Source of the DNA: Pseudomonadota bacterium
GTDB lineage: Bacteria; Myxococcota_A; UBA9042
DNA length: 34,529 nt
NCBI GenBank assembly: GCA_005792545.1
Contig: SXRM01000345.1
Span: 1-34,529 of the forward strand
Reading direction: 5' to 3'
The position numbers and the translations under genes were made by a program. Numbering within the stretch: the stretch's first letter is position 1; each line of letters opens with the position of its first letter. Below, piece after piece: positions 3,424-26,549 of this stretch. Under the pieces are notes generated by a model. That model had not been told where the DNA came from. It searched no databases and saw nothing but the letters and a program-made list of their open reading frames with translations.

Positions 3424-3547
3424 GGCGATTCAACGGGCACAACAATCGCCGTGAGGCGAGTCAACAGGTACAGGGCTCGCCACAGGGCGATTCAACGGGC
3501 ACAGTGCCCGCCGCAAGGCGATTCAACGCGGCACAGGCCGCAAGCAG
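3424..3547 (+). repeat. Four tandem 31-base units in the leader of the TolQ-like gene
   Basis: Units begin at 3424, 3455, 3486 and 3517, exactly 31 bases apart, each opening with GGCGATTCAAC or the one-base variant GGCGAGTCAAC. The first half of each unit is conserved and the second half varies. In unit 1 the opening GGCGAT is complementary to a later ATCGCC. In unit 2 the opening has changed to GGCGAG and the partner has changed to CTCGCC. Unit 3 contains CGGGCAC-A-GTGCCCG, and unit 4 pairs GCGGC with GCCGC. Pairing thus seems to be kept while sequence changes, which argues for structured RNA. The array ends 14 bases before the ATG at 3562, so it could affect translation. Confidence 0.85.
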
Positions 3548-3561
3548 GGAGCAGGCAAGCG

Positions 3562-4227
3562 ATGTTTCAATCGATTTCCACCGCCTTCGAGGAAGGCGGC
3601 ATCGGCATGTACTTCATTCTCGTGCACCTCATCTTCATTCTCGCGATCGCGTTTGAGCGCATCTTCGTGCTCTACATCCGGTCGAGCGTGAAGAAAGAGG
3701 AGTTCATCAAGCTGTTGCAGGTGCCGATCCTCAAGGGCGACCTGAACCGCGTCCTCAAGGTGTGCTCCACCTACCAGTACCCGCTGGCGCGCATCGTGCA
3801 CGCGGGCGTGCTCAAGGTGAAGCGCTCGGACGAAGAGGTTCAGGCGGCGATGGACGAGGCCTACCTGCGCGAGATCCCGCAGATCGAGAAGCGCGTGGAC
3901 TACCTGAACTTGCTCGGCAACACCGCCACGCTGGCCGGTCTGCTCGGCACCGTGTTCGGTCTCATCCACACCTTCGGCGCCATCGGCAAGCCGGACGTCG
4001 ACGCCTCGCAGCGCTCGACCCTGCTCTCGAAGGGTATCTCGGAAGCCATGAACTGCACGGCGTTCGGTCTGGGCACCGGCATCGTCGGTGTGCTTTTCTA
4101 CGCCGTCCTCGCCTCCAAGGGCAAGGAAATCAAGGCCGACATCGACGAGGGCACGGTTCGCGTGCTCAACCTCATCGTGGCCAACCGCAACAAGATGGGC
4201 GACATCAAGGAAGAGGCCGCGGCCTAG
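3562..4227 (+). CDS. TolQ/ExbB/MotA-family proton-channel protein
   Basis: A 221-residue inner-membrane subunit of a proton-driven force-generating complex. Three transmembrane segments are visible at about residues 15-37, 117-139 and 161-184, with the usual large cytoplasmic loop between the first two. The third helix begins GISEAMNCTAFGLGTG and aligns with the ExbB GIAEALLATAIGL segment, keeping the glutamate (Glu161) and threonine (Thr166) that line the channel in ExbB. The family normally works as a pentamer around a TolR/ExbD dimer, and two such partners follow downstream. Myxococcus AglR is the TolQ-type member of a one-TolQ/two-TolR motor (AglRQS), so a motility or envelope-transport role is possible. 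The start has a weak GGGAG nearby and follows the tandem repeat directly. Family is firm; subfamily is inferred. Confidence 0.93.
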   Translation: MFQSISTAFEEGGIGMYFILVHLIFILAIAFERIFVLYIRSSVKKEEFIKLLQVPILKGDLNRVLKVCSTYQYPLARIVHAGVLKVKRSDEEVQAAMDEAYLREIPQIEKRVDYLNLLGNTATLAGLLGTVFGLIHTFGAIGKPDVDASQRSTLLSKGISEAMNCTAFGLGTGIVGVLFYAVLASKGKEIKADIDEGTVRVLNLIVANRNKMGDIKEEAAA

Positions 4228-4769: not shown

Positions 4770-5411
4770 ATGGGTGGTGGTTCATCAGGCAAGGGCGGCG
4801 TAGCGGACGCTAATCTGAACGTCGTGCCGTTCATCGATCTGCTCGCGTGCATCATCTGCTTCTTGCTGATCTCAGCGGCGTGGACGCAGATGGCCCGCAT
4901 CGACGTCGATCAGGCGCTGCCCAAGGCTTCGCCGAAACCGCCACCGACGCCGCCGGCGCCGGAAGGCAAGATCAACGTGGTCATCACGCCAAACGGCCAC
5001 CTGGTCAACCTGTGGAACGCCGACAAAATCGCCAGCCCGCACCCAGAGCACGTCACGGTGACCAAGATCATGGCCAACGGTGATTTCAAGTTGTGCCGCG
5101 GTCGCGCTGGCGGCGATTGCTCAGGCGCCTCCGCGGAGTCGTTCAAGAAGTACGACTACGCCAAGCTGCGCGAGAAGCTTGAGTCCTACCTGCGCGATTG
5201 CGCGCTGCCCACGGACAACAAAGTCGGCGGCAAGAACACCAAGGTCATGGTCGCCGCTGTCGACTCCGTCCAATACCTGCACTTGATCCGCACGCTCGAC
5301 CAGATCCTGCTGGCCTGCAAGGACAAGGACAAGAAAGAGACGTGCCTGAACAACCCAAGCGTCGGCGACGTCAACCTGCTGCGCGCGGAAGGCTTCACTT
5401 CGTTCGACTAG
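4770..5411 (+). CDS. TolR/ExbD-family protein with Cys-rich periplasmic domain
   Basis: A 213-residue bitopic inner-membrane protein. A short Gly-rich cytoplasmic start leads into NLNVVPFIDLLACIICFLL, the single TolR/ExbD transmembrane helix with its essential proton-carrying aspartate (Asp23). A Pro-rich linker (residues 51-65) and a periplasmic domain follow. The family domain is usually short and free of cysteine; here it is enlarged and has cysteines at 109, 117, 144, 183 and 192, with an inserted Gly/Cys loop (residues 109-119). The start has the clearest ribosome-binding site in this part of the window (AAGGAG, six bases spacing). It should pair with the TolQ-like protein. With the second TolR-like gene it gives the one-to-two gene arrangement known from AglR/AglQ/AglS. 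Confidence 0.9.
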   Translation: MGGGSSGKGGVADANLNVVPFIDLLACIICFLLISAAWTQMARIDVDQALPKASPKPPPTPPAPEGKINVVITPNGHLVNLWNADKIASPHPEHVTVTKIMANGDFKLCRGRAGGDCSGASAESFKKYDYAKLREKLESYLRDCALPTDNKVGGKNTKVMVAAVDSVQYLHLIRTLDQILLACKDKDKKETCLNNPSVGDVNLLRAEGFTSFD

Positions 5412-5485: not shown

Positions 5486-6088
5486 ATGTCCGTCCATCAC
5501 CCTGGTTCACGCGCTGGCTCTGGTGTCGCGCTCAAGACCATCCGCAACTCGGTCGCACACGGCGGCGGCAAGAGCCTGTTCGCCACGTTGAACGTGGTGC
5601 CGATGATCGACCTGTTCACGATGCTCGTGATCTTTCTGATCATGCAGTTCAGCGCATCGGGCGAATTGATGATGGTCAACCCCAACGTGGCCATGCCTAA
5701 GGCCGGCGCCAAGAAGGAACTCGATCGCGCACCGATTGTGGCGCTGACCCGCTGGGAAGGCAAAGACGCGCCTGGCGATCTGCTGTTTGAAAACAACAAG
5801 GTGCTGAGCCAGAAGGACATCAACGAGGTCAAGTTCCCGACCTGGGACATCAAGCCGCTGGCCGAAGTGCTCAAGAAGAACTGGGCCAACCAGCAGAAGT
5901 TCAACGGGCCGACCCCTGAGAAGACCAAGGCTTTGCGGACCAACCGCAAGATCATCATCCAAGCGGACCGCACGGTGCCATTTAGCGTCATCAAGATGGT
6001 GATGGCGACCTGCGGCCGCAACGAGTACCGCGAGCCCAACTTCGCCATTATGGTCTCCCCCGGCGGCGACGAAGCCGCCGCAAAGTAA
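5486..6088 (+). CDS. Second TolR/ExbD-family protein
   Basis: A 200-residue bitopic membrane protein. After a 30-residue basic cytoplasmic segment comes TLNVVPMIDLFTMLVIFLIM, the family transmembrane helix with the conserved aspartate (Asp42). The periplasmic part is of near-typical size and ends in a domain with IIIQADRTVPFSVIKMVMATC, the strand-helix pattern of ExbD (compare its typical QADkxvpyexV segment). It differs clearly from the first TolR-like protein, so the two are probably distinct subunits rather than recent copies. In known one-TolQ/two-TolR motors both TolR-type proteins are needed. The next gene starts 29 bases on, so transcription probably continues through the nuclease-fold and repeat-protein genes. 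Confidence 0.92.
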   Translation: MSVHHPGSRAGSGVALKTIRNSVAHGGGKSLFATLNVVPMIDLFTMLVIFLIMQFSASGELMMVNPNVAMPKAGAKKELDRAPIVALTRWEGKDAPGDLLFENNKVLSQKDINEVKFPTWDIKPLAEVLKKNWANQQKFNGPTPEKTKALRTNRKIIIQADRTVPFSVIKMVMATCGRNEYREPNFAIMVSPGGDEAAAK

Positions 6089-6117: not shown

Positions 6118-6876
6118 ATGCTCAGCCGACCCGCATTCGCCGCTCGACGCCCAGTTGGGGTCACCGCGGTGGGTGCGGGTCTGGCGTTTTTGGCGAGCTT
6201 GGCTGCGGTGCTCTCAGCCAGTGGGGCAGAGGCCCGCCCCATGTCGCGGGTGTTTCTCAACGGCGTGCCCGCGCCAGTCTATTTCAACGACGGTGACAGC
6301 TTTACGGTGCTCGGCGGGCCGCTCGAGGGTAGCAAGGCGCGCCTGGCCGGCTTCAACACCCTGGAAAGCTTCGGACCAGTGCATCGTTGGGGCACCTGGA
6401 CTGCGCAAGAACTGTACGTTGCATCCAAGAAGGCGACGCTAAACGCCCGCCGCGGCGTCTGGCACTGCCACTCAGAGCTGAACCGCGACGGCTACGGCCG
6501 CATTTTGTGGACCTGCCCGGACCTCATCATCGATCAGATCCGCAAGGGCCTGGCGCATGCGATGACGGTGACCGAGGAACCAGCGCCCCAGCCCCAACTT
6601 GATGCGATGTATGCAGCGCAGGCTGAGCGCCGCGGCATTTGGGCGCACGGCATCCCGGAATTTATCCTGACGAGTACCCACAGCAATGACGAAGGCTACC
6701 CTGGCGCCACCTACAACCGCCTGGTGTCGACTAGGACTGGCGCTTCCCGCAAGTGGCTGCACAAGGACAACTACAAGGACTGCCAGGAAATCTGCCACGA
6801 GACGGGGTCGTGCATGGTGCACGTGCACTTCAGCAAGCGCTACGGCCAGCAACGCGCCGCCTGCCTGGACCACTAA
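6118..6876 (+). CDS. Secreted staphylococcal-nuclease-fold protein with Cys-rich tail
   Basis: A 252-residue exported protein with a signal peptide (residues 1 to about 39, ending SGAEA). The middle matches the staphylococcal (thermo)nuclease fold: DGDSF (Asp58, Asp60), RLAGFNTLE (Arg75, Thr81, Glu83) and RDGYGR (Arg128). By alignment these are the nuclease calcium-site aspartates 19/21, the catalytic Arg35, Glu43 and Arg87, and Thr41. The residue equal to calcium ligand Asp40 is Asn80. Cysteines 117 and 133 fall in the core, and residues from about 185 onward form an extra tail with Cys222, 226, 232 and 249 that is not part of the nuclease fold. It may be a true extracellular or periplasmic nuclease or a modified binding domain. 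It ends two bases before the repeat-lipoprotein start, strongly suggesting co-expression. Confidence 0.75.
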   Translation: MLSRPAFAARRPVGVTAVGAGLAFLASLAAVLSASGAEARPMSRVFLNGVPAPVYFNDGDSFTVLGGPLEGSKARLAGFNTLESFGPVHRWGTWTAQELYVASKKATLNARRGVWHCHSELNRDGYGRILWTCPDLIIDQIRKGLAHAMTVTEEPAPQPQLDAMYAAQAERRGIWAHGIPEFILTSTHSNDEGYPGATYNRLVSTRTGASRKWLHKDNYKDCQEICHETGSCMVHVHFSKRYGQQRAACLDH

Positions 6877-6878
6877 CC

Positions 6879-8132
6879 ATGCCAACGCCTGCTCGCACGC
6901 TGCGCACCACTGTCAGCACGGCCTTGGGCGTTATTGCCGCGACCGGCTGCTATCAGAAGCCCGATTTTCCGGTCCTCGGCTACGAGACGGGTCACCAGTA
7001 CTGCAAAGACGGCATCGACAACGATCAAGACGGCCTGCTGGATTGCGAGGACAAGGACTGCCTGTGGACCTCGACACTGTGCGGGCAGTGGATTCCGCTG
7101 GTCGAACAGTTCTCGCCCGAGAACACTCCGGCGTTGTGCCATGATTTTATTGACAACGACGACGACGGTCAGTTCGACTGCAACGACCGCAACTGCCAGA
7201 ACTTGATGGAGGCGTGCTGCGGCCGCGAGTTCAGCAACGCTTTGTGCACCGACGGCAAGGACAACGACGGCAATGGCTACGCCGACTGCCAGGACTTTGG
7301 CTGCCGCGGCGGCATCTATGTCACGGTCTGCGTTGAGCAGGACGACAAGGCCTGCACGGATGGCAAGGACAACGACGGCGACAAGATCATCGACTGCCTG
7401 GACGACGACTGCAAGGCGCTCGCCGCCTGCAAGGCCAAGGGAAGCGGCGAGAAAGAGACGACGCTTGCATTGTGCAGCAACGGTATCGACGACGACGGCA
7501 ACAAGTACACGGACTGTAACGATTTCTCCTGCACCAAGTCCGGCGATCAGGCTGTGCTCGACTACTGCAAGAGCAAGGTCGAGAACACACTGGCCACATG
7601 CAAGAACGGCATCGACGATGACGGCGATGGGTACCTGGACTGCGCTGACCGCTCGTGCAGCGACGTCTTGAATGGCGCTCCCGACGAAGCGGCGCAGTGG
7701 TGCGCGTCGATCGCCGAAGACACCTTTGAAAAGTGCACCAACAAAGCGGACGACGACGGCGACACCTACGCCGACTGCGGCGACCGCTCATGCGCCGAGT
7801 CGGGCAAGCCCTGGACGGGCCAGACGGATAAGACGGTCGCCGAGTATTGCGGCACCATCCTGGAAGTCACGTTCGACCGCTGCAAAGACGGCATCGATAA
7901 CGACAACAACGGCTACGCCGACTGCGCCGACTACTCGTGCCGCCTGGCCAAGGACGCCAAGGTGCGCCAGGCCTGTCAGGAGAGCTGGCCGAGCGGCGAC
8001 ACGGCCAACGCCCGCTGTAAAGACGGTCTGGACAACGACCAAGACGGGTCGGTGGACTGCAACGACTGGGACTGCGCCTGGAATCCGGACGTGACGGTTT
8101 GCACTGGGCCCAAGGTGTGCGCGCCCAAGTAG
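6879..8132 (+). CDS. Lipoprotein with nine Cys/Asp-rich DNDxDG repeats
   Basis: A 417-residue predicted lipoprotein (lipobox Cys24, AATGC). I chose ATG 6879, which yields the signal sequence; a longer frame lacks one. The mature protein is essentially nine copies of a motif close to C-x-D/N-G-x-D-N/D-D-x-D/N-G-x-x-D-C-x-D-x-x-C, starting at Cys42, 87, 123, 159, 199, 241, 286, 335 and 380, separated by 15-30-residue spacers that often hold one or two more cysteines. The aspartate-rich loop resembles calcium-binding EF-like or thrombospondin-3-like loops, and the flanking cysteines could form a disulfide in each unit. Such repeats recur in surface lipoproteins of Myxococcota; no enzyme activity is implied. 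It lies two bases after the nuclease-fold gene and 18 before the repeat-barrel gene. Calcium-stabilised surface adhesion or structure is inferred. Confidence 0.88.
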   Translation: MPTPARTLRTTVSTALGVIAATGCYQKPDFPVLGYETGHQYCKDGIDNDQDGLLDCEDKDCLWTSTLCGQWIPLVEQFSPENTPALCHDFIDNDDDGQFDCNDRNCQNLMEACCGREFSNALCTDGKDNDGNGYADCQDFGCRGGIYVTVCVEQDDKACTDGKDNDGDKIIDCLDDDCKALAACKAKGSGEKETTLALCSNGIDDDGNKYTDCNDFSCTKSGDQAVLDYCKSKVENTLATCKNGIDDDGDGYLDCADRSCSDVLNGAPDEAAQWCASIAEDTFEKCTNKADDDGDTYADCGDRSCAESGKPWTGQTDKTVAEYCGTILEVTFDRCKDGIDNDNNGYADCADYSCRLAKDAKVRQACQESWPSGDTANARCKDGLDNDQDGSVDCNDWDCAWNPDVTVCTGPKVCAPK

Positions 8133-8150
8133 CGCCAAAGGAACGAGGCG

Positions 8151-9761
8151 ATGAAGCAACTGCTGGTCGTAGCTTGGGGTTTGCTGTGCGCGGGCGCAGC
8201 CTGGGCCGATGAGACGCCCCCGGCCGGGGACCCGCCTGCCGCGGCTGCCCCTGCTGCTGCGCCTGCCAGTGGTCCTGCCGGCAAGGAAGCCAACTGCGCC
8301 GATCGCAAAGACGACGACGGCGACGGCATGGTCGACTGCGCCGACGCGGACTGCGCCAAGGACGAGGCCTGCAAGGTCGGCAGCGGCCCCGAGAACACCA
8401 ACGCCAGGTGCAGCGACTGGTTCGACAACGACGGCGACGGCCTGATTGACTGCGACGACCCGGACTGCGAGACCGGCGGTGTCACGGTGTGTAAGGGTTC
8501 GTGGAAGGGCCCCGAGCCGACCGGACCTGCAGCAATGGCCAGCGAGGATGTGCCCGAACTCGGACCCGGCCAGTCCGTCGAGGACCTGATCGGCAAGGGC
8601 AGCGACAAGGATGGCGAGCGATCGGACGAGGTGTGCTCCGACGGCGTGGATAACGACAACGACGGCCGGGTGGACTGCGCCGACTTTGGCTGCCGCTTCG
8701 ACCCCGAGGTCACAGTCTGTCGCGGCAATCCTGGCATGCGCTTCTCGGTCGTCGCTGGCATTGAGACCAACATGCTCGACAAGGGCGCCAAGAAGGAGTT
8801 CGACCAGGGCTCGGTCAAGACGCAGTACGGCACCCAGTTCACGCGCTTGCAACTGCGAACGTTCGGTCCGATGCCGCTCATCCAGAACTCGTTCTATCTC
8901 ATCAGCATCCGCACCGAGCGCGACACCCGCGCGACGTTCGCCATGTTCCAGGTTCCGCTCGGTCGCCATGGCCACTTCATCAACATCAACTCAGGCGGCG
9001 GCGGTCTGTCGGCGGCGCTCATCACCTCGACGTCCAAGCTGCTGCTGCTCGACCCGGCGTACTACATGACGGCAAGCTTCGAGCAACCCAACGGCGCTGC
9101 GGCCGAAGTGCTGGGACCGATCACCTCCGACTACAAGCTGCACTACCGTGCTTTTGTGGCGGGCGGTTCCGGTCGCTCGACCGGCGTCATCGGCGGGACG
9201 TACTACGTCGACGATCAACGCAACTACACCTACACCGTCGGCGGGCAACTTGGGATCAACGCGATCGGCGTGCTCAACCGCTTTGACTCGCCCTTCTTGT
9301 ACACCCCGGTGGCGACGACGCTCGGCGGCACCATTGGCGCCAAGTTCGACCAGCGCGCGCAGGAGCGCTATCCGGCGTTCAACGCCAACATGGTGCTGCG
9401 GACGGGTCGCATCTACGGTCAGGCAGAGGTCTATGGCAAGAAGTCGCTGGATTTTGACGCGCTCACCTACGCCTGGAATGTGCAGCTAGGTTTTCTGGCG
9501 CTGCCCAAAAAGCTGATGCTGGCGATGGACTACGGCAACCTGGTCGCGGGCAAGATGAACAACCTGCCGGCCAACGTGGACCCGATGCTGACCAAGCAGG
9601 TGGACCAGTGGCAGTTTCGGGCCGCGGCGCACTGGTACGTGTACCGCAACATCGGTCTGGTGTCGGCGTTGGTGCGGATGACCGAGACCGCGAACCCCAA
9701 AGACCCGAGCAGCCCCATCCAAGAGCGCGAAGCGTTGCTTTCGGCCCAGTACCGCTTCTAG
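8151..9761 (+). CDS. Outer-membrane beta-barrel protein with three N-terminal Cys/Asp repeats
   Basis: A 536-residue exported protein: signal peptide (about residues 1-19, AAWA cut), an Ala/Pro linker, three repeats of the same Cys-DGxDNDxDGxxDC type as in the upstream lipoprotein (from Cys49, Cys87 and Cys162), then a domain of about 340 residues from residue 197. That domain has alternating hydrophobic/polar strands, many aromatics and a C-terminal phenylalanine (SAQYRF), the usual signature of an outer-membrane beta-barrel inserted by the Bam machinery. It resembles phosphate-selective-porin-like barrels in general pattern only; I cannot name a family. The repeats would sit on the periplasmic or outer face and could join with those of the lipoprotein. 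AAAGGA at 8137-8142 serves as ribosome-binding site. Confidence 0.82.
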   Translation: MKQLLVVAWGLLCAGAAWADETPPAGDPPAAAAPAAAPASGPAGKEANCADRKDDDGDGMVDCADADCAKDEACKVGSGPENTNARCSDWFDNDGDGLIDCDDPDCETGGVTVCKGSWKGPEPTGPAAMASEDVPELGPGQSVEDLIGKGSDKDGERSDEVCSDGVDNDNDGRVDCADFGCRFDPEVTVCRGNPGMRFSVVAGIETNMLDKGAKKEFDQGSVKTQYGTQFTRLQLRTFGPMPLIQNSFYLISIRTERDTRATFAMFQVPLGRHGHFININSGGGGLSAALITSTSKLLLLDPAYYMTASFEQPNGAAAEVLGPITSDYKLHYRAFVAGGSGRSTGVIGGTYYVDDQRNYTYTVGGQLGINAIGVLNRFDSPFLYTPVATTLGGTIGAKFDQRAQERYPAFNANMVLRTGRIYGQAEVYGKKSLDFDALTYAWNVQLGFLALPKKLMLAMDYGNLVAGKMNNLPANVDPMLTKQVDQWQFRAAAHWYVYRNIGLVSALVRMTETANPKDPSSPIQEREALLSAQYRF

Positions 9762-9849: not shown

Positions 9850-12324
9850 ATGGCGCAAGCACACTCTCAAAGGTTCCATATTGTTACAGCGCTTGCGCGC
9901 CGGCTTCGCGGTGCGTGGTGGGGGCCGGCAGCGCTGCTGCTCGGTGGCGGCGTTTGGATCGGCCTGCGCGTGCCGATCTCCGCACCAGCATTAACAATTG
10001 CCGCCCTAGCTAGCCTGTACGTTGTGGCCCAGGGCCGACGCTGCGGCCGCGACATCCTTGCTCGCTTGGGCAGCTTTTTGATCGTGGCCTGCGCAGGCCT
10101 GGCGCTGGGGGCCCACGCCCTTGCCGAGCCGCCGCCCCTCGATCTGCCCACGCCGCTGCGCCTGCCGCCGATTCAGCACGGCGTGATCACAGACGACCCG
10201 GCGCTGACGGAGCACGGCCACCGCTTTACGCTGGAGTGGCGGCACCGGTGTCCGCCGCCGCCAACGCGTGCCGGCTGCATGCCTACGTGGGGCCAGTTGC
10301 GCGTGCAGGTGCGCGGGCAGGGCGTGCAAGTGCGGCGCGGTGACGTGGTGCGCATTGCGGCGTTCGTCACGCCGCCACCCGGCTTCGGCAACGTCGGCGC
10401 GTTGGACTTGCGGCAAGACTGGGCGCGGCAGCAGCGCTGGGGCAGCCTGCACGTCGCCCACGCGGGCAAGATCGCGATCGTTGCGCGCAGTGCCTCGCCG
10501 CTCCACGCAACCCTGGACTTGATCGCGCGTGGGCGCCGCCTTTTGGCGCTGCGGATAGCCAGGGCGCTGCCGCCTGAGCACGCCGCGATCGTCAACGCCA
10601 TGGCGCTCGGCGATCAAAGCGTGCGCTGGCCCGAACTAGACCAGTGGCTGCGCGACACCGGCACGGCGCACGTCCTGGCGGTCTCCGGTAGTCACCTGGC
10701 GCTCGTCGTCGGCGCGCTGCGGTGGCTTTTGCGCGCGCTTGTGCGGCGGTGCGCGGCCGGGCTGTTGCGCCAACAGCCACTGCCGGTGTGGACTGCGGTG
10801 CCGTTGTTGGTTGCGGCTTGGGCGTACACCGCACTGACCGGCTTCGCGCCGGCGACGATCCGAGCTGCGTGGATGCTGTCCGCTGCTGTACTGGCCGAGA
10901 CTGTCGCGCGGCGGGTCAGTGTCTGGGAATTGCTGGGTTTTGCCGGCGTCCTTGTGGTCGCATTCGATCCCGCCGCCGCAGATGACCTGGGCGTGCAGCT
11001 GTCGATCGCTGGGGTCGCCGGCCTGGTGTGGGCGGCGCCAGCGGCCCAGCCCGAACCTGCCACTGGCCTGAGCGCCGTGCGCGCGGCCTGGCGCTGCGCC
11101 GTGGGCGCTTGGGCGGCCACGACACCCATTTGCGCCCTGCGCCTGGGCCAGATCGCGTGGTGGAGCGCACCAGTCAACTTTGCGCTCGCCCCCTACGCCG
11201 TGCTGCTGTTGCCTGCGTGCCTTGCTGTGGCGGTGGGCCTCGCCCTGCCGTGGTCACCGGCCCACGCCGCCACGGTGCAAGCTTGCGCATGGATGCTGTG
11301 GCCGTGGACCGCCCTTGTGCGCGGTACAGCGGACGGGTTCGCCGTCGCGACGACCCATGGTGCAGAGGCGCTGGCGTTGGCCGCCTGGGCGCTTGCAGTG
11401 GGCGGCGCAGTGTTGCATGGAGGCCGATGGTTGGGCCGCGCCCTGCTGGCAGCTGTGTTGGTTGCCGTGGTCTCCGTTGGTCAGCGCTGGTCGGCAGCCG
11501 CTCCGCGCGACGGTGCGCGCGTGACGTTCTTCGACGTTGGCCATGGCGACGCGATTGCCATTCAAACCGGCGACGGTCGCGCCTGGCTCATCGACGGCGG
11601 CGGTCAGGTCGGCGACGATGGGCGGCTCGGGCAACTGGCGGTGGTTCCCGCCTTGCGCGCGTTGGGGATCGACCGCATCGACCGCGTAGTATTGACCCAC
11701 GCCCACCCGGATCACGAGAACGGCTTGCTTGCGGTGGCCCGCTCCATGCCTGTCGAGCAGTTCTGGTTCAACGGCCAGGACGCTGCCGGCGCGGAACACC
11801 AACAACTGCTGCGCCACTGGGCTGGCCGTCGCGTTGCCGTACCGATGGCTCCGACCGCGGTGGTCGAGGGGCCGTTGAAGGTGCGCGTGCTATGGCCGGC
11901 CGGAATCGCTTGGCCGTGGGTCACCGATCGCGGCCACAACGACAATTCGCTGGTGTTGGAGCTCGCAGTGGGCCAGGCAAGAATGCTTTTGAGTGGCGAC
12001 ATCGAAGCCGTCGCCGAAGCGGACCTGGTGCGGACCGGGGCCTTGCGCAGCGTCGACGTGCTGAAAGTTCCCCACCACGGCAGTCGCACATCGAGCACGG
12101 CCGCCTTGCTAGCTGAGCTGCGGCCCGCAATCGGCGTAGCCGGGGCACGGCCTTGGGGCCAGTTGGCCTTTCCGCATGGCGACGTGCGCGCGCGTTATCG
12201 ACAGTCGAACATTGGCCTGTGGTCGACGGCCGCCGGTGCCGTAACAGTTACCTTGCGCCCCGACCGGGTCGAGGTCCGTCAGGGTGCGCGGTACGCTGCC
12301 TGGACACCTTCAGACCAGCGGTAG
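9850..12324 (+). CDS. comEC: ComEC/Rec2 family DNA-uptake channel
   Basis: An 824-residue polytopic inner-membrane protein of the ComEC/Rec2 family, the channel that carries single-stranded DNA into the cytoplasm during natural transformation. An N-terminal hydrophobic stretch and soluble segment lead to the competence domain with GTAHVLAVSGSHLALVVG near residue 278, the most conserved block of the family, and many membrane helices. From about residue 558 comes a metallo-beta-lactamase-like domain: FFDVGHGDAI, LIDGGG, THAHPDHENG, LLSGDIE and VPHHGSRTSS, all the expected metal-site motifs. The domain order is the usual one and length is normal. The start at 9850 is the first ATG giving a sensible N-terminus; its ribosome-binding site is weak. 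It follows the barrel gene by 88 bases but is probably functionally separate. Confidence 0.96.
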   Translation: MAQAHSQRFHIVTALARRLRGAWWGPAALLLGGGVWIGLRVPISAPALTIAALASLYVVAQGRRCGRDILARLGSFLIVACAGLALGAHALAEPPPLDLPTPLRLPPIQHGVITDDPALTEHGHRFTLEWRHRCPPPPTRAGCMPTWGQLRVQVRGQGVQVRRGDVVRIAAFVTPPPGFGNVGALDLRQDWARQQRWGSLHVAHAGKIAIVARSASPLHATLDLIARGRRLLALRIARALPPEHAAIVNAMALGDQSVRWPELDQWLRDTGTAHVLAVSGSHLALVVGALRWLLRALVRRCAAGLLRQQPLPVWTAVPLLVAAWAYTALTGFAPATIRAAWMLSAAVLAETVARRVSVWELLGFAGVLVVAFDPAAADDLGVQLSIAGVAGLVWAAPAAQPEPATGLSAVRAAWRCAVGAWAATTPICALRLGQIAWWSAPVNFALAPYAVLLLPACLAVAVGLALPWSPAHAATVQACAWMLWPWTALVRGTADGFAVATTHGAEALALAAWALAVGGAVLHGGRWLGRALLAAVLVAVVSVGQRWSAAAPRDGARVTFFDVGHGDAIAIQTGDGRAWLIDGGGQVGDDGRLGQLAVVPALRALGIDRIDRVVLTHAHPDHENGLLAVARSMPVEQFWFNGQDAAGAEHQQLLRHWAGRRVAVPMAPTAVVEGPLKVRVLWPAGIAWPWVTDRGHNDNSLVLELAVGQARMLLSGDIEAVAEADLVRTGALRSVDVLKVPHHGSRTSSTAALLAELRPAIGVAGARPWGQLAFPHGDVRARYRQSNIGLWSTAAGAVTVTLRPDRVEVRQGARYAAWTPSDQR

Positions 12325-22372: not shown

Positions 22373-22552
22373 GCCACTGATCAATCCGAGCCGCCGTGCG
22401 TCGCAGCATCACCGGGCTGCCGCTATCGCAACTGCGTGGCGGTTCCGGTCGCGAACGCTTCCGGCTAGCCGGGGTGCCCGCGGTTCGCAATGGCGCAAAC
22501 CCGTTCCCCCGCGCGGCGCCTGGCGCGCGTGTCGCTCTCACTTGAGGTCGCT

Positions 22553-24337
22553 ATGAGCACTGCCAATCGCCATCTCCGCCTCGGCATCGTCTATCGCGGC
22601 AGCATCATTCACGAAGAGTTGATCGACCGCCGCATCGATATCTCGATCGGCCGCCGGGCCGGCTCGACCATCCACGTTGCGCCGAAGTCACACCCCGACT
22701 TTCCCGAGTTTCTCGACTTCCTGGTCATCGAGAACAACCAGTACCACCTGGTGGTACCGGCCGATCCCAACGCCAAGATCAGCCTGCGCGGCGCCGCCAA
22801 CCCCGGCGAGCCCAAGACGGTCAAGGGCCGCCGCGCGATTGCGGTCGAGGGCGTCACCGCCGGCTCGCTTGTCGCTGGCGAGGTCACCGTAATGTTCCAG
22901 TTCGTGCGTGGCGACACCACGCCGATGATCACGCGCGAGCGCACCGTGTTGCGGCTCGGCCTGGTCTACGACGATCGGCTCATCGACGATCGCATCTTTC
23001 CCGACGACAAGATGGTCTCGGTTGGTACGCAGCGCACCAACACGATCGTGCTACCCGACGAGGACTATCAGGGCCCGAGCCTGACCTTCTTGAACCACAA
23101 GGACGGGTCGATCTCGATGCGCGCGCCGGACGGCATGAAGATCCGCCTGGCGGTCGACGGCGCCCCGATGGAAATCAAAGAGCTGGAGGCCAAAGGCAAG
23201 GCTCGCAAAGAGGGCACCGACATGGTGTGCCACTTGAGCCTGGGCACGCGCGGCCGCGCGACTATGGGCCAGCACACGCTGCTGTTTCAGGTGGTCAAGC
23301 AGTCGGTGACGATTCCTGCGATGCCGCAGCGCGGGCTGGCCGAGAAGGTCATCGCGGGCGCGCTCGCCGAGCCGGCGTGGTGGATCTCGTTCGGCGTGTC
23401 GTTCTTGCTGATCCTTGGCGTGATCTTCCAGGCACACTACTTTGAGAAGACGACCAACAAGTTCCTCAAAGCGCGCCAAGAAGAGCAGGCGTCGCGCGGC
23501 ACCTTCGAACAGATCCTCGAGATGAAAGAGGAGATCAAGGTCGAAGAGAAGAAAGCGGAGGAACCCAAGAAAGAAGAAGTTGCGATCGTGCCCAAAGAAG
23601 TCGAGGCGAAGAAAGAGAAGGTCGAGAAGGTCGATCGCAAGCCCGACAAGGTCGAAGCCGCCAAGGCGGAGAAGCCGCAGTCTGTCGGCGAAAAGGTCGA
23701 TCCGACCGAAAAGACCGCTCGCGCGACCAAAGCCGTCGAGGAAAAGACGGTGGCCGGCGCCTTTAAGGGGTTGGGCGGTTCGACCAAGTTCTTTCAAGAA
23801 GCGGGCGACGGTGAGGCCGGCGATGTGGTCGCCAAGACCTTCGGCGGCACCGGCGACGGCGACGGTGGCGACAAAGGCCCGAGCGGCGGCGGCCTCAAGC
23901 TTGCAGCCGGGGCCAAGGTCGGCGGCACGGTCGAAAAGGTCGCAAAGGGCAAGACTGGCGGCTTTGAGAAACGCTCCGGCGACGAGACCAAGACCGTCGT
24001 CGAAAAGAAGGAAGCGGCCGTCCAGATCAAGATGACCGGCGACACCACCGGCAGCGGCGAGGCCAAGGCCGACGTCGCCAAGGTCGTGTCGCGCAAGAAC
24101 TCGGCGGTGCAGCGCTGCTACGAGCAGGCTTTGCGCGACAATCCCGACACAGGCGGCAAGGTCAAGGTCACCTTCACGGTTGGCACCGAAGGCACGATTA
24201 CCGACGTCAGCATCTCTGGCGCTTCGGGCGGTTTTGCGGACTGCATCAAGAGCAAGTTTGAGAGCATTCGCGGTCTGCCGCCGCTCAGCTCGCCGCAGAC
24301 CTTTGGCCAGAGCTACGTGTTCAGCAAGAGCCAGTAG
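22553..24337 (+). CDS. AgmX/GltG-like TonB-type protein, paralog 1
   Basis: A 594-residue bitopic inner-membrane protein. The cytoplasmic part has two related beta-rich modules, about residues 8-118 and 132-250, each starting with an R/LGLVY strand and containing an FHA-like SIGRRAGSTI or SVGTQRTNTI turn. A transmembrane helix (275-296), a Lys/Glu-rich linker (305-395), a Gly-rich segment and an AgmX/PglI-type C-terminal domain (about 508-594) follow; the last holds RKNSAVQRCYEQALRDNP, a beta sheet and a second cysteine (Cys522, Cys564). This C-terminal fold is related to TonB and links inner-membrane motors to outer-envelope partners; Myxococcus AgmX (GltJ) and GltG are the best-known examples. 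ATG 22553 is preferred to 22490, which adds a non-conserved basic extension. It has a close paralog 427 bases downstream. Its partner is not known. Confidence 0.85.
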   Translation: MSTANRHLRLGIVYRGSIIHEELIDRRIDISIGRRAGSTIHVAPKSHPDFPEFLDFLVIENNQYHLVVPADPNAKISLRGAANPGEPKTVKGRRAIAVEGVTAGSLVAGEVTVMFQFVRGDTTPMITRERTVLRLGLVYDDRLIDDRIFPDDKMVSVGTQRTNTIVLPDEDYQGPSLTFLNHKDGSISMRAPDGMKIRLAVDGAPMEIKELEAKGKARKEGTDMVCHLSLGTRGRATMGQHTLLFQVVKQSVTIPAMPQRGLAEKVIAGALAEPAWWISFGVSFLLILGVIFQAHYFEKTTNKFLKARQEEQASRGTFEQILEMKEEIKVEEKKAEEPKKEEVAIVPKEVEAKKEKVEKVDRKPDKVEAAKAEKPQSVGEKVDPTEKTARATKAVEEKTVAGAFKGLGGSTKFFQEAGDGEAGDVVAKTFGGTGDGDGGDKGPSGGGLKLAAGAKVGGTVEKVAKGKTGGFEKRSGDETKTVVEKKEAAVQIKMTGDTTGSGEAKADVAKVVSRKNSAVQRCYEQALRDNPDTGGKVKVTFTVGTEGTITDVSISGASGGFADCIKSKFESIRGLPPLSSPQTFGQSYVFSKSQ

Positions 24338-24764: not shown

Positions 24765-26549
24765 ATGGGCCTGGACACGAGCCGCGTATTGCGCATTGGT
24801 GTCGTCTACCGCGGTCACGTTGTGGCTGAGCGCGTGCTGGACCGACGGACCGATGTGTCGATCGGCACCCGCGCCGACTGCACCGTACAGGTGCCGGCTG
24901 GCGACTACCCGGACTTTCCGGCTCACCTGCCGGTAGCCGTCATTCACCAAGGCGCCTACCACGTCGTAGTGCCCGCAGATCCTGCCCACAGCATCAACCT
25001 GCGCGGCGGCCCCTCCGGTGCGGCGGAGTCGCTCCGGCAGCAAGCGGTGACGGTCAAGGGCATCAAGGCCGTGCCGTCTGAGCCGTTCAACGGTGGCTCA
25101 CTCACGATGGGCGACGTCATCGTGATGTTCCAGTTCGTGCGCGGCGACTCGGTGCCGACCGTCACCCGCGAGCGCACTGTCCTACGCATTGGCCTTGTTC
25201 ATGACGCGCGGCTGTTGTCGGACCAGATCTTCGAACTTGGCCACCCGGTCACGATCGGCTCGGCGGCCCGCGATACGCTGGTGCTGCCAGACGTGGACTA
25301 CAAGGGGCCATCGGCGCGGTTCTTTGGACCCAAGAACGCCACCAATTTTGACGTCAAGCTTCCCAAGGACTGCCAACTCAAGGTCGCCATTGATGGCGTG
25401 CCGATGGATCTTGCCGAGTTGGTCGCCAAGAAGCACGTCGCCCAGCAGGGCGACATGCTGCACCTCAGACTCCCGCTCAAGTCGCGCGGTCGTGCGTCGC
25501 TCGGGCCGTATACGCTGCTGTTCCAGGTTGTGCGCCAGTCCGTGACTGTACCGGCGATGCCGCGCAAGACCCTGGCTGGACAGCTTTTCGGGTCGCTGTG
25601 GGCGGATTCGGCGTGGACGGTATCGCTGGCGATCTCATTCCTGTTGTTCGGGTCGATCGTGGCGCAAGCCCGCATCTACTACGAGACACACGAGAAGTTC
25701 TTGCAGCGCGCCCAGGCCGAGGAAGAGCGCGAGCAGTCGATCTACGACGTGCAGGTCGAAGAAAAAGAAGAGCCCAAAGAGGAAAAGAAGCCAGAAGTCG
25801 ACATCTTGAGCGACAAGGCCAAGGCCGAACAAGAGAAAGAGAAGCAGGACGACAAGAAGAAGCCCGACAAAACGCCGCCCAAAGAGGAGAAGCCGCAGTC
25901 GCAGGGCAGGCAGCTGAACCCGGACGAGATCAAGGCGCAGGCCCGCGCGCGCGTAGACAAGGAAACGGTCGCCGGCGCCTTCAAGTCCAGCAAGTTCTTC
26001 GCCGAAGCGGGCGAGGGCGAGACCGGCGACGTCGTCGCGCGTACGTTCAGCGGCGCAGGCGAGTCGGACGGTGACAAAGACGGCGGCCCGGGCACCGGCG
26101 TCAAACTCGCGGCGGGCTCCGGTGCCGGCGGCGGCACGGTCGAGAAAGTCCACGGCGGCAAGCCGGGCGGATTCGGCGACCGCGCCACCGATGTGGCCAA
26201 GACCGAGGTCAAGAAAGAAGAGAAAGCTGTCCAGGTCGTGCTCAAGTCGGGCGGCATGGACGGCGACGGCGAAGGCAAGACCGAAATCGCGCGCGTGATT
26301 CAGCGCAAGAACTCGGCCGTGCAGCGTTGCTACGAGCAGGCGCTGCGCGACAACCCCGACGTGGGCGGCAAAGTCAAAGTCACGTTTACGGTCGGCACCG
26401 CCGGCACCATCACCGATGTCAGCGTGTCAGGGGCACAGGGCGCGTTCGAAGAGTGCATCAAGGTCAAATTCACGTCGATCCGTGGTCTGCCGACCCTGCC
26501 AAGCCCGCAGACGTTCAGCCAGAGCTACATCTTCCAAAAGGGCAGCTAG
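24765..26549 (+). CDS. AgmX/GltG-like TonB-type protein, paralog 2
   Basis: A 594-residue paralog of the preceding gene with the same order: two FHA-like modules (each beginning RIGVVYRG or RIGLVHDA), a transmembrane helix (about 284-305), a Lys/Glu linker, the shared VAGAFK ... KFFAEAGEGETGDVVARTFSG block and the AgmX/PglI C-terminal domain with RKNSAVQRCYEQALRDNP and its paired cysteine. The C-terminal domain is almost the same in both copies, whereas the cytoplasmic modules and linker have drifted. This suggests a shared outer partner but different cytoplasmic inputs. The start has a good GAGAGGAC. The gene ends 11 bases before coaE and may be co-transcribed with it. Role inferred from the AgmX family only. 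Confidence 0.85.
   Translation: MGLDTSRVLRIGVVYRGHVVAERVLDRRTDVSIGTRADCTVQVPAGDYPDFPAHLPVAVIHQGAYHVVVPADPAHSINLRGGPSGAAESLRQQAVTVKGIKAVPSEPFNGGSLTMGDVIVMFQFVRGDSVPTVTRERTVLRIGLVHDARLLSDQIFELGHPVTIGSAARDTLVLPDVDYKGPSARFFGPKNATNFDVKLPKDCQLKVAIDGVPMDLAELVAKKHVAQQGDMLHLRLPLKSRGRASLGPYTLLFQVVRQSVTVPAMPRKTLAGQLFGSLWADSAWTVSLAISFLLFGSIVAQARIYYETHEKFLQRAQAEEEREQSIYDVQVEEKEEPKEEKKPEVDILSDKAKAEQEKEKQDDKKKPDKTPPKEEKPQSQGRQLNPDEIKAQARARVDKETVAGAFKSSKFFAEAGEGETGDVVARTFSGAGESDGDKDGGPGTGVKLAAGSGAGGGTVEKVHGGKPGGFGDRATDVAKTEVKKEEKAVQVVLKSGGMDGDGEGKTEIARVIQRKNSAVQRCYEQALRDNPDVGGKVKVTFTVGTAGTITDVSVSGAQGAFEECIKVKFTSIRGLPTLPSPQTFSQSYIFQKGS

Follow-up and report, generated by a model that had tools for sequence, protein, structure and literature searches.

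Three neighbouring genes, coding for a secreted nuclease-like protein, a repeat lipoprotein and an outer-membrane barrel protein, are conserved together in many myxobacteria and uncultured relatives of these. Their presence side by side in many genomes suggests a so far unstudied cell-envelope assembly, and this co-conserved set is the new part of the finding. It is described here from a window of 34,529 nucleotides (the whole stretch of DNA that was analysed), in which all three genes lie on the + strand. The 20-residue Cys/Asp unit shared by the lipoprotein and the barrel is already known, as NCBIfam NF033662 (acidic double-disulfide repeat). That family covers the unit alone; nothing in its name refers to a porin, to a partner lipoprotein or to a set of genes. 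In open PubMed Central, the only literature searched, no paper was found naming the "acidic double-disulfide repeat" or describing the set, which is weak evidence of its being unreported.

If our interpretation is correct, it would provide a context for a repeat which is frequent among the proteins of this phylum but has so far only been named. It would also relate a bacterial envelope module to the calcium domain found in animal teneurins and present a porin held to a lipoprotein through matching calcium modules. Since the gene set is all-or-none, the idea is testable in one organism.

Conservation of the gene set

The porin part of the barrel protein was searched against 22 genomes of the window's family and 52 of its class, and a porin-part profile was run against 377 genomes sampled from the phylum. 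Including the window's own genome in both cases, the porin part was present in 21/22 family genomes and 29/52 class genomes. The profile detected a barrel in 60 of the 377 phylum genomes, at one copy each, and in none of the remaining 317; among good-quality genomes, 47/235 carry it. A barrel search of plasmids gave no match.

The surroundings of all 60 barrels were read (28 class loci, 31 outside the class, and the window). The repeat lipoprotein gene was directly upstream of the barrel gene and on the same strand in every case, that is 59/59 besides the window. The sequence-only reading had called for a search for other repeat proteins paired with barrels, and among the 377 genomes searched such homologs are side by side wherever a barrel occurs. 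Its scope was limited to two genes. This pair is conserved, but the set also includes the nuclease-like gene that immediately precedes it (6118-6876): in the 42 loci compared, the nuclease-like, lipoprotein and barrel genes were the sole general neighbours.

The repeat unit

The lipoprotein gene (6879-8132, +) codes for 417 residues with a lipobox-like IAATGC sequence. It starts 2 bases after the nuclease-like gene and is followed, after 18 bases, by the barrel gene (8151-9761, +), which codes for a protein of 536 residues comprising a signal peptide, three units and a predicted 16-strand porin domain. The sequence-only reading had ended the feature at 9290, a position inside the barrel gene. 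Among the 57 untruncated lipoproteins of the different loci, 42 passed the lipobox pattern, and the remaining 15 have a cysteine in the corresponding position within a less strict box.

A strict pattern search detected nine copies of the unit in the lipoprotein (7002-7061, 7137-7196, 7245-7304, 7353-7412, 7473-7532, 7599-7658, 7734-7793, 7881-7940 and 8016-8075) and three in the barrel protein (8295-8354, 8409-8468 and 8634-8693), all on the + strand. With NF033662, all twelve units matched well over the cut-off of 41 bits, the lipoprotein scoring 229.6 bits in nine stretches and the barrel protein 102.5 bits in three. The count of twelve copies in two neighbouring genes, proposed from the sequence at first sight, is thus confirmed by both methods. 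No unit match appeared in 20,000 shuffles of the lipoprotein or in 20,000 of the barrel protein. Pfam offered no family for either protein, the single lipoprotein match being far under the cut-off. The motif initially described, C-x-DG-x-DND-x-DG-xx-DC-x-D-xx-C, holds as a consensus, but several copies differ from it by one or two residues. Moreover, it is incomplete for the barrel, where each unit has an additional fourth cysteine 6 to 9 residues past the third.

The unit core measured exactly 20 residues in 742/742 units, although the pattern permits other lengths. Across the 60 genomes, units were counted by pattern. The count was three for 59 barrels and two for the remaining one (L182), in which a degenerate first unit is visible; with this unit included, all 60 barrels have three. 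Twelve cysteines, four per unit, are invariant in the 29/29 barrels aligned. Lipoproteins mostly contain 8 to 12 units, with one reaching 18; the lowest counts partly result from contig ends (L045, L062 and L179 are incomplete). The lipoprotein alignment covered 27 of the 29 class proteins, the window's included. In one lipoprotein (L061:9139-10734), an EGF-like Cys-rich stretch was noticed by eye after the last unit. In teneurins, the C-rich domain likewise adjoins EGF repeats (PMC9058538).

The unit is also common in other proteins of genomes of the phylum. The window's own genome codes for a second lipoprotein-like protein of 1469 residues (G000:C34, locus L066:5972-10381, - strand), in which the pattern finds 19 units and whose C-terminal part is different. 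Such proteins indicate that the unit can work without a barrel or lipoprotein partner.

Porin domain and probable location of the barrel units

The structure model of the barrel protein (mean pLDDT 75) displays 16 strands from residue 154 on, and most of the porin part (8736-9758, +) lies between 70 and 95. The best solved folds for this model were OprO and OprP (Z 25, 294-319 residues aligned), followed at a small Z gap by PorB, OprB, Omp32 and others (Z 22-23); Foldseek ranked other porins ahead of OprP. The barrel protein is therefore best described as a modelled 16-strand porin, apparently closest to OprO/OprP. Pfam found no porin family in it. The 16-strand barrel is common to the model and OprO/OprP, at 12% identity and with the unit region outside the aligned part. 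The barrel could share the anion selectivity and trimeric state of these porins; strand residues include 16.9 R/K vs 11.3 D/E per sequence, in an uncontrolled comparison. The porin domain is without cysteine in 57/60 barrels. A C-terminal Phe was found in 55/60, one of the 60 ending at a contig break.

In porins, an even strand number should place both termini on the periplasmic side. The 16 strands and the mostly conserved C-terminal Phe therefore point to a periplasmic position for the three barrel units, and we hold this location to be probable. With periplasmic barrel units, a tether between the two proteins would run on the inner side of the outer membrane, except in the case of an exported lipoprotein.

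OmpM1 was among the structural matches of the barrel model. OmpM of diderm Firmicutes is a porin with a periplasmic N-terminal extension which combines the functions of tether and uptake channel (PMC10628300). With its porin, periplasmic stalk and double role, it may be regarded as the closest working analogue of the present barrel. It might be argued from this likeness that the porin and the lipoprotein chain connect the outer membrane with the cell wall; the long, presumably periplasmic N-terminal region of the barrel protein resembles that of OmpM1. However, the OmpM extension consists of an SLH domain and a stalk, whereas that of the barrel is made of calcium-type units and has a separate lipoprotein as a partner. 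Pfam detected neither SLH nor any other cell-wall-binding domain in the two proteins, and lack of an SLH match places the barrel protein outside the OmpM family. Moreover, absence of the set from 317/377 phylum genomes would be odd for a main tether, and the nuclease-like gene is left unexplained. Thus, we consider a role in cell-wall attachment to be improbable.

Likeness to the teneurin C-rich domain

Among solved structures, the unit is best matched by the human teneurin-4 C-rich domain (7plp), at E 1.4e-5 with the barrel profile and 1e-5 with the lipoprotein profile. The lipoprotein model superimposed on this domain to 1.1 Å over 27 residues, at 56% identity; the Foldseek match was weak by E-value (0.17), with a probability of 0.91. 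In its crystal structure, the teneurin-4 domain binds three calcium ions through eight acidic residues, one Asn, water molecules and backbone carbonyls; its six cysteines are paired 1-3, 2-5 and 4-6 (PMC9058538). In the alignment, equivalents of the acidic ligands occupy 8/8 positions in barrel unit 1 and 7/8 in each of units 2 and 3, and both these positions and the cysteines of the N-terminal disulfide keep the register of the teneurin-4 domain.

By analogy with the solved domain, calcium is the likely metal of the units, which supports the earlier suggestion that the repeats are of a calcium type, and disulfides may be expected in the units for the same reason. The 20-residue Cys/Asp core is common to both. 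Teneurin-4 has a single unit with six cysteines (PMC9058538), whereas the bacterial envelope proteins carry many copies with four cysteines each.

Descent of the units and proposed assembly of the two proteins

Units were compared between families by best match, one of the 742 being left out because it lay too near an end. The best match of a barrel unit was the unit at the same barrel position in 58/59 cases for unit 1, 57/59 for unit 2 and 55/59 for unit 3; among the exceptions, two and three match the two-unit barrel L182. In the lipoprotein, same-position best matches were obtained for unit 1 (54/57), unit 2 (57/58), unit 3 (48/58) and the last unit (55/58), while middle units mixed positions. 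A tree was also built from 318 units of 26/60 pairs over 32 columns. It required 6 changes of gene label, vs a mean of 70 and a minimum of 64 after shuffling. On this tree, barrel unit 3 (26/26) and the last lipoprotein unit (25/26), which in the window is unit 9 at 8016-8075, formed sister clades with supports of 0.89 each. Barrel unit 1 and lipoprotein unit 3 were less clean.

Judged from these comparisons, the units of both genes belong to old, position-specific lineages, for which a common origin is visible only at the last unit of each gene. Recent exchange of units between the two genes was rejected on the basis of the same-position best matches and of the 6 vs 70 label changes. The sequence-only reading had raised the possibility that units of one gene came from the other. 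As a recent event this does not hold, but the sister relationship of the last units retains part of the idea. That reading would have been abandoned if the repeats belonged to separate lineages and the homologs were not found side by side; separate lineages were indeed observed, but the genes are adjacent in 60/60 genomes.

Inheritance of the set as a whole, the fixed number of barrel units and the calcium-type modules together lead us to read the pair as a porin-lipoprotein assembly. The barrel would be a 16-strand porin whose periplasmic N-terminus bears three calcium-binding double-disulfide modules, and the lipoprotein a chain anchored in the outer membrane, mostly of eight to twelve modules of the same type. 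These modules would join the lipoprotein to the porin, forming a calcium-stiffened scaffold on the periplasmic face of the outer membrane. We lean slightly towards such a direct assembly. Barrel and lipoprotein units at corresponding positions do not group together, the last units apart; this speaks against it, as does the occurrence of the unit in other proteins.

The same two observations favour another explanation, in which the units are stabilising modules only and do not bind across proteins. Gene order would then be conserved because the porin and the lipoprotein act in one pathway. In this respect, the C-rich domain of teneurin-4 packs on its own chain (PMC9058538). Purely stabilising modules are harder to reconcile with a barrel that has exactly three units in 60/60 genomes, none being without them, and with the sister relationship between the last barrel unit and the last lipoprotein unit. 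This explanation is possible, but we judge it rather unlikely.

The nuclease-like protein

The first gene of the set (6118-6876, +) codes for a secreted staphylococcal-nuclease-like protein of 252 residues. It was found upstream of the lipoprotein gene on the same contig in 56/60 loci. In the other four genomes (G008, G014, G041 and G277) the ortholog lies at or near a contig end, and two of these then carry lipoprotein units. A profile of the protein detected orthologs at E<1e-100 in 61/377 genomes; reading both lists, these are the 60 barrel genomes plus one (G234), in which the nuclease-like gene is interrupted by a contig end.

Pfam SNase matched 30/41 aligned orthologs (best E 9.2e-9); the window's own copy scored 13.4 bits, under the cut-off of 21. 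A PDB search with this protein alone returned nothing relevant, and a search with the profile returned thermonucleases at E 0.003 to 0.013. The catalytic residues of staphylococcal nuclease we take to be Asp21, Arg35, Asp40, Glu43 and Arg87, with Asp40 as a calcium ligand. Equivalents of four of the five (Asp21, Arg35, Glu43 and Arg87) are invariant in the alignment, and the place of Asp40 is taken by an invariant Asn. Nuclease activity is uncertain because of this replacement of a calcium ligand.

Altogether, a co-inherited outer-membrane module in which calcium modules join a porin to a lipoprotein, with a nuclease-type companion, has, in our estimate, a little less than an even chance of being correct. 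In this module, the third gene would provide a secreted staphylococcal-nuclease-type protein, whose anionic products (nucleotides, phosphate) would enter via the pore. Scavenging of nucleic acid or phosphate as the function is doubtful.

Paralogs of the nuclease-like protein are present in several families of the phylum (L206-L225 and L231-L234, E 1e-51 to 1e-74). They were rejected as a duplicate of the set, with 0/24 paralog loci having an adjoining repeat gene. In one family (f17; L176, L184, L226 and L227), the nuclease-like gene is immediately preceded by an additional repeat gene in the opposite orientation.

Genes surrounding the set

In the window, the set is preceded by a TolQ/ExbB-type gene (3535-4227, +) and two ExbD/TolR-type genes (4770-5411 and 5486-6088, both +), and is followed by a gene for a ComEC-type DNA uptake channel (9850-12324, +). 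These are neighbours in the window's own family. There, 19/21 genomes have the TolQ-type and both ExbD-type genes ahead of the set on one contig, and in the other two they are on split contigs; ComEC follows in 19/21, the other two being contig ends. In the 39 loci outside the family, a TolQ-type gene was near in only one, at 30% identity, and no ComEC match was found in the flanks read. With linkage limited in this way, the TolQ-ExbD-ExbD motor is a feature of the family and not part of the set, and it was rejected as a general partner.

It could be supposed that the set is the output part of a proton-driven envelope machine of the AglRQS/Glt type, powered by this motor. AglR-AglQ-AglS consists of one TolQ and two ExbD (PMC3169522), and in Myxococcus xanthus these genes stand beside envelope genes, as in the one family here. 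Two GltG-like proteins are also coded within the window. However, in addition to the restricted linkage, TolQ relatives occur in 291/377 genomes with or without a barrel, and far from the barrel in one of them (G195), so that the motor is not co-inherited with the barrel; the two GltG-like genes are close to the set in the nearest relatives only. We regard this machine as very improbable.

A broader version of the scavenging idea is somewhat less improbable, but still unlikely. It would combine the nuclease-type protein with an anion-type porin clamped by calcium modules to a long lipoprotein rod, as a myxobacterial envelope machine for nucleic-acid scavenging to which the window's family adds the motor and ComEC. 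In that family, the set together with TolQ-ExbD-ExbD and ComEC would then amount to a single operon-like pathway bringing DNA from outside into the cytoplasm.

The two GltG-like proteins (22490-24337 and 24765-26549) are neighbours, with an AgmX/PglI C-terminal domain and 52% identity to each other, and lie side by side in many family genomes. Their distance to the barrel is about 15 kb in G000 and G015 and 35-40 kb in G011 and G016; elsewhere they are on another contig. As members of the set they were rejected, being near it only in the closest relatives. Finally, the TolQ-type protein (3535-4227) is 82-100% identical across the 22 family genomes, and the porin part goes down to 43%.
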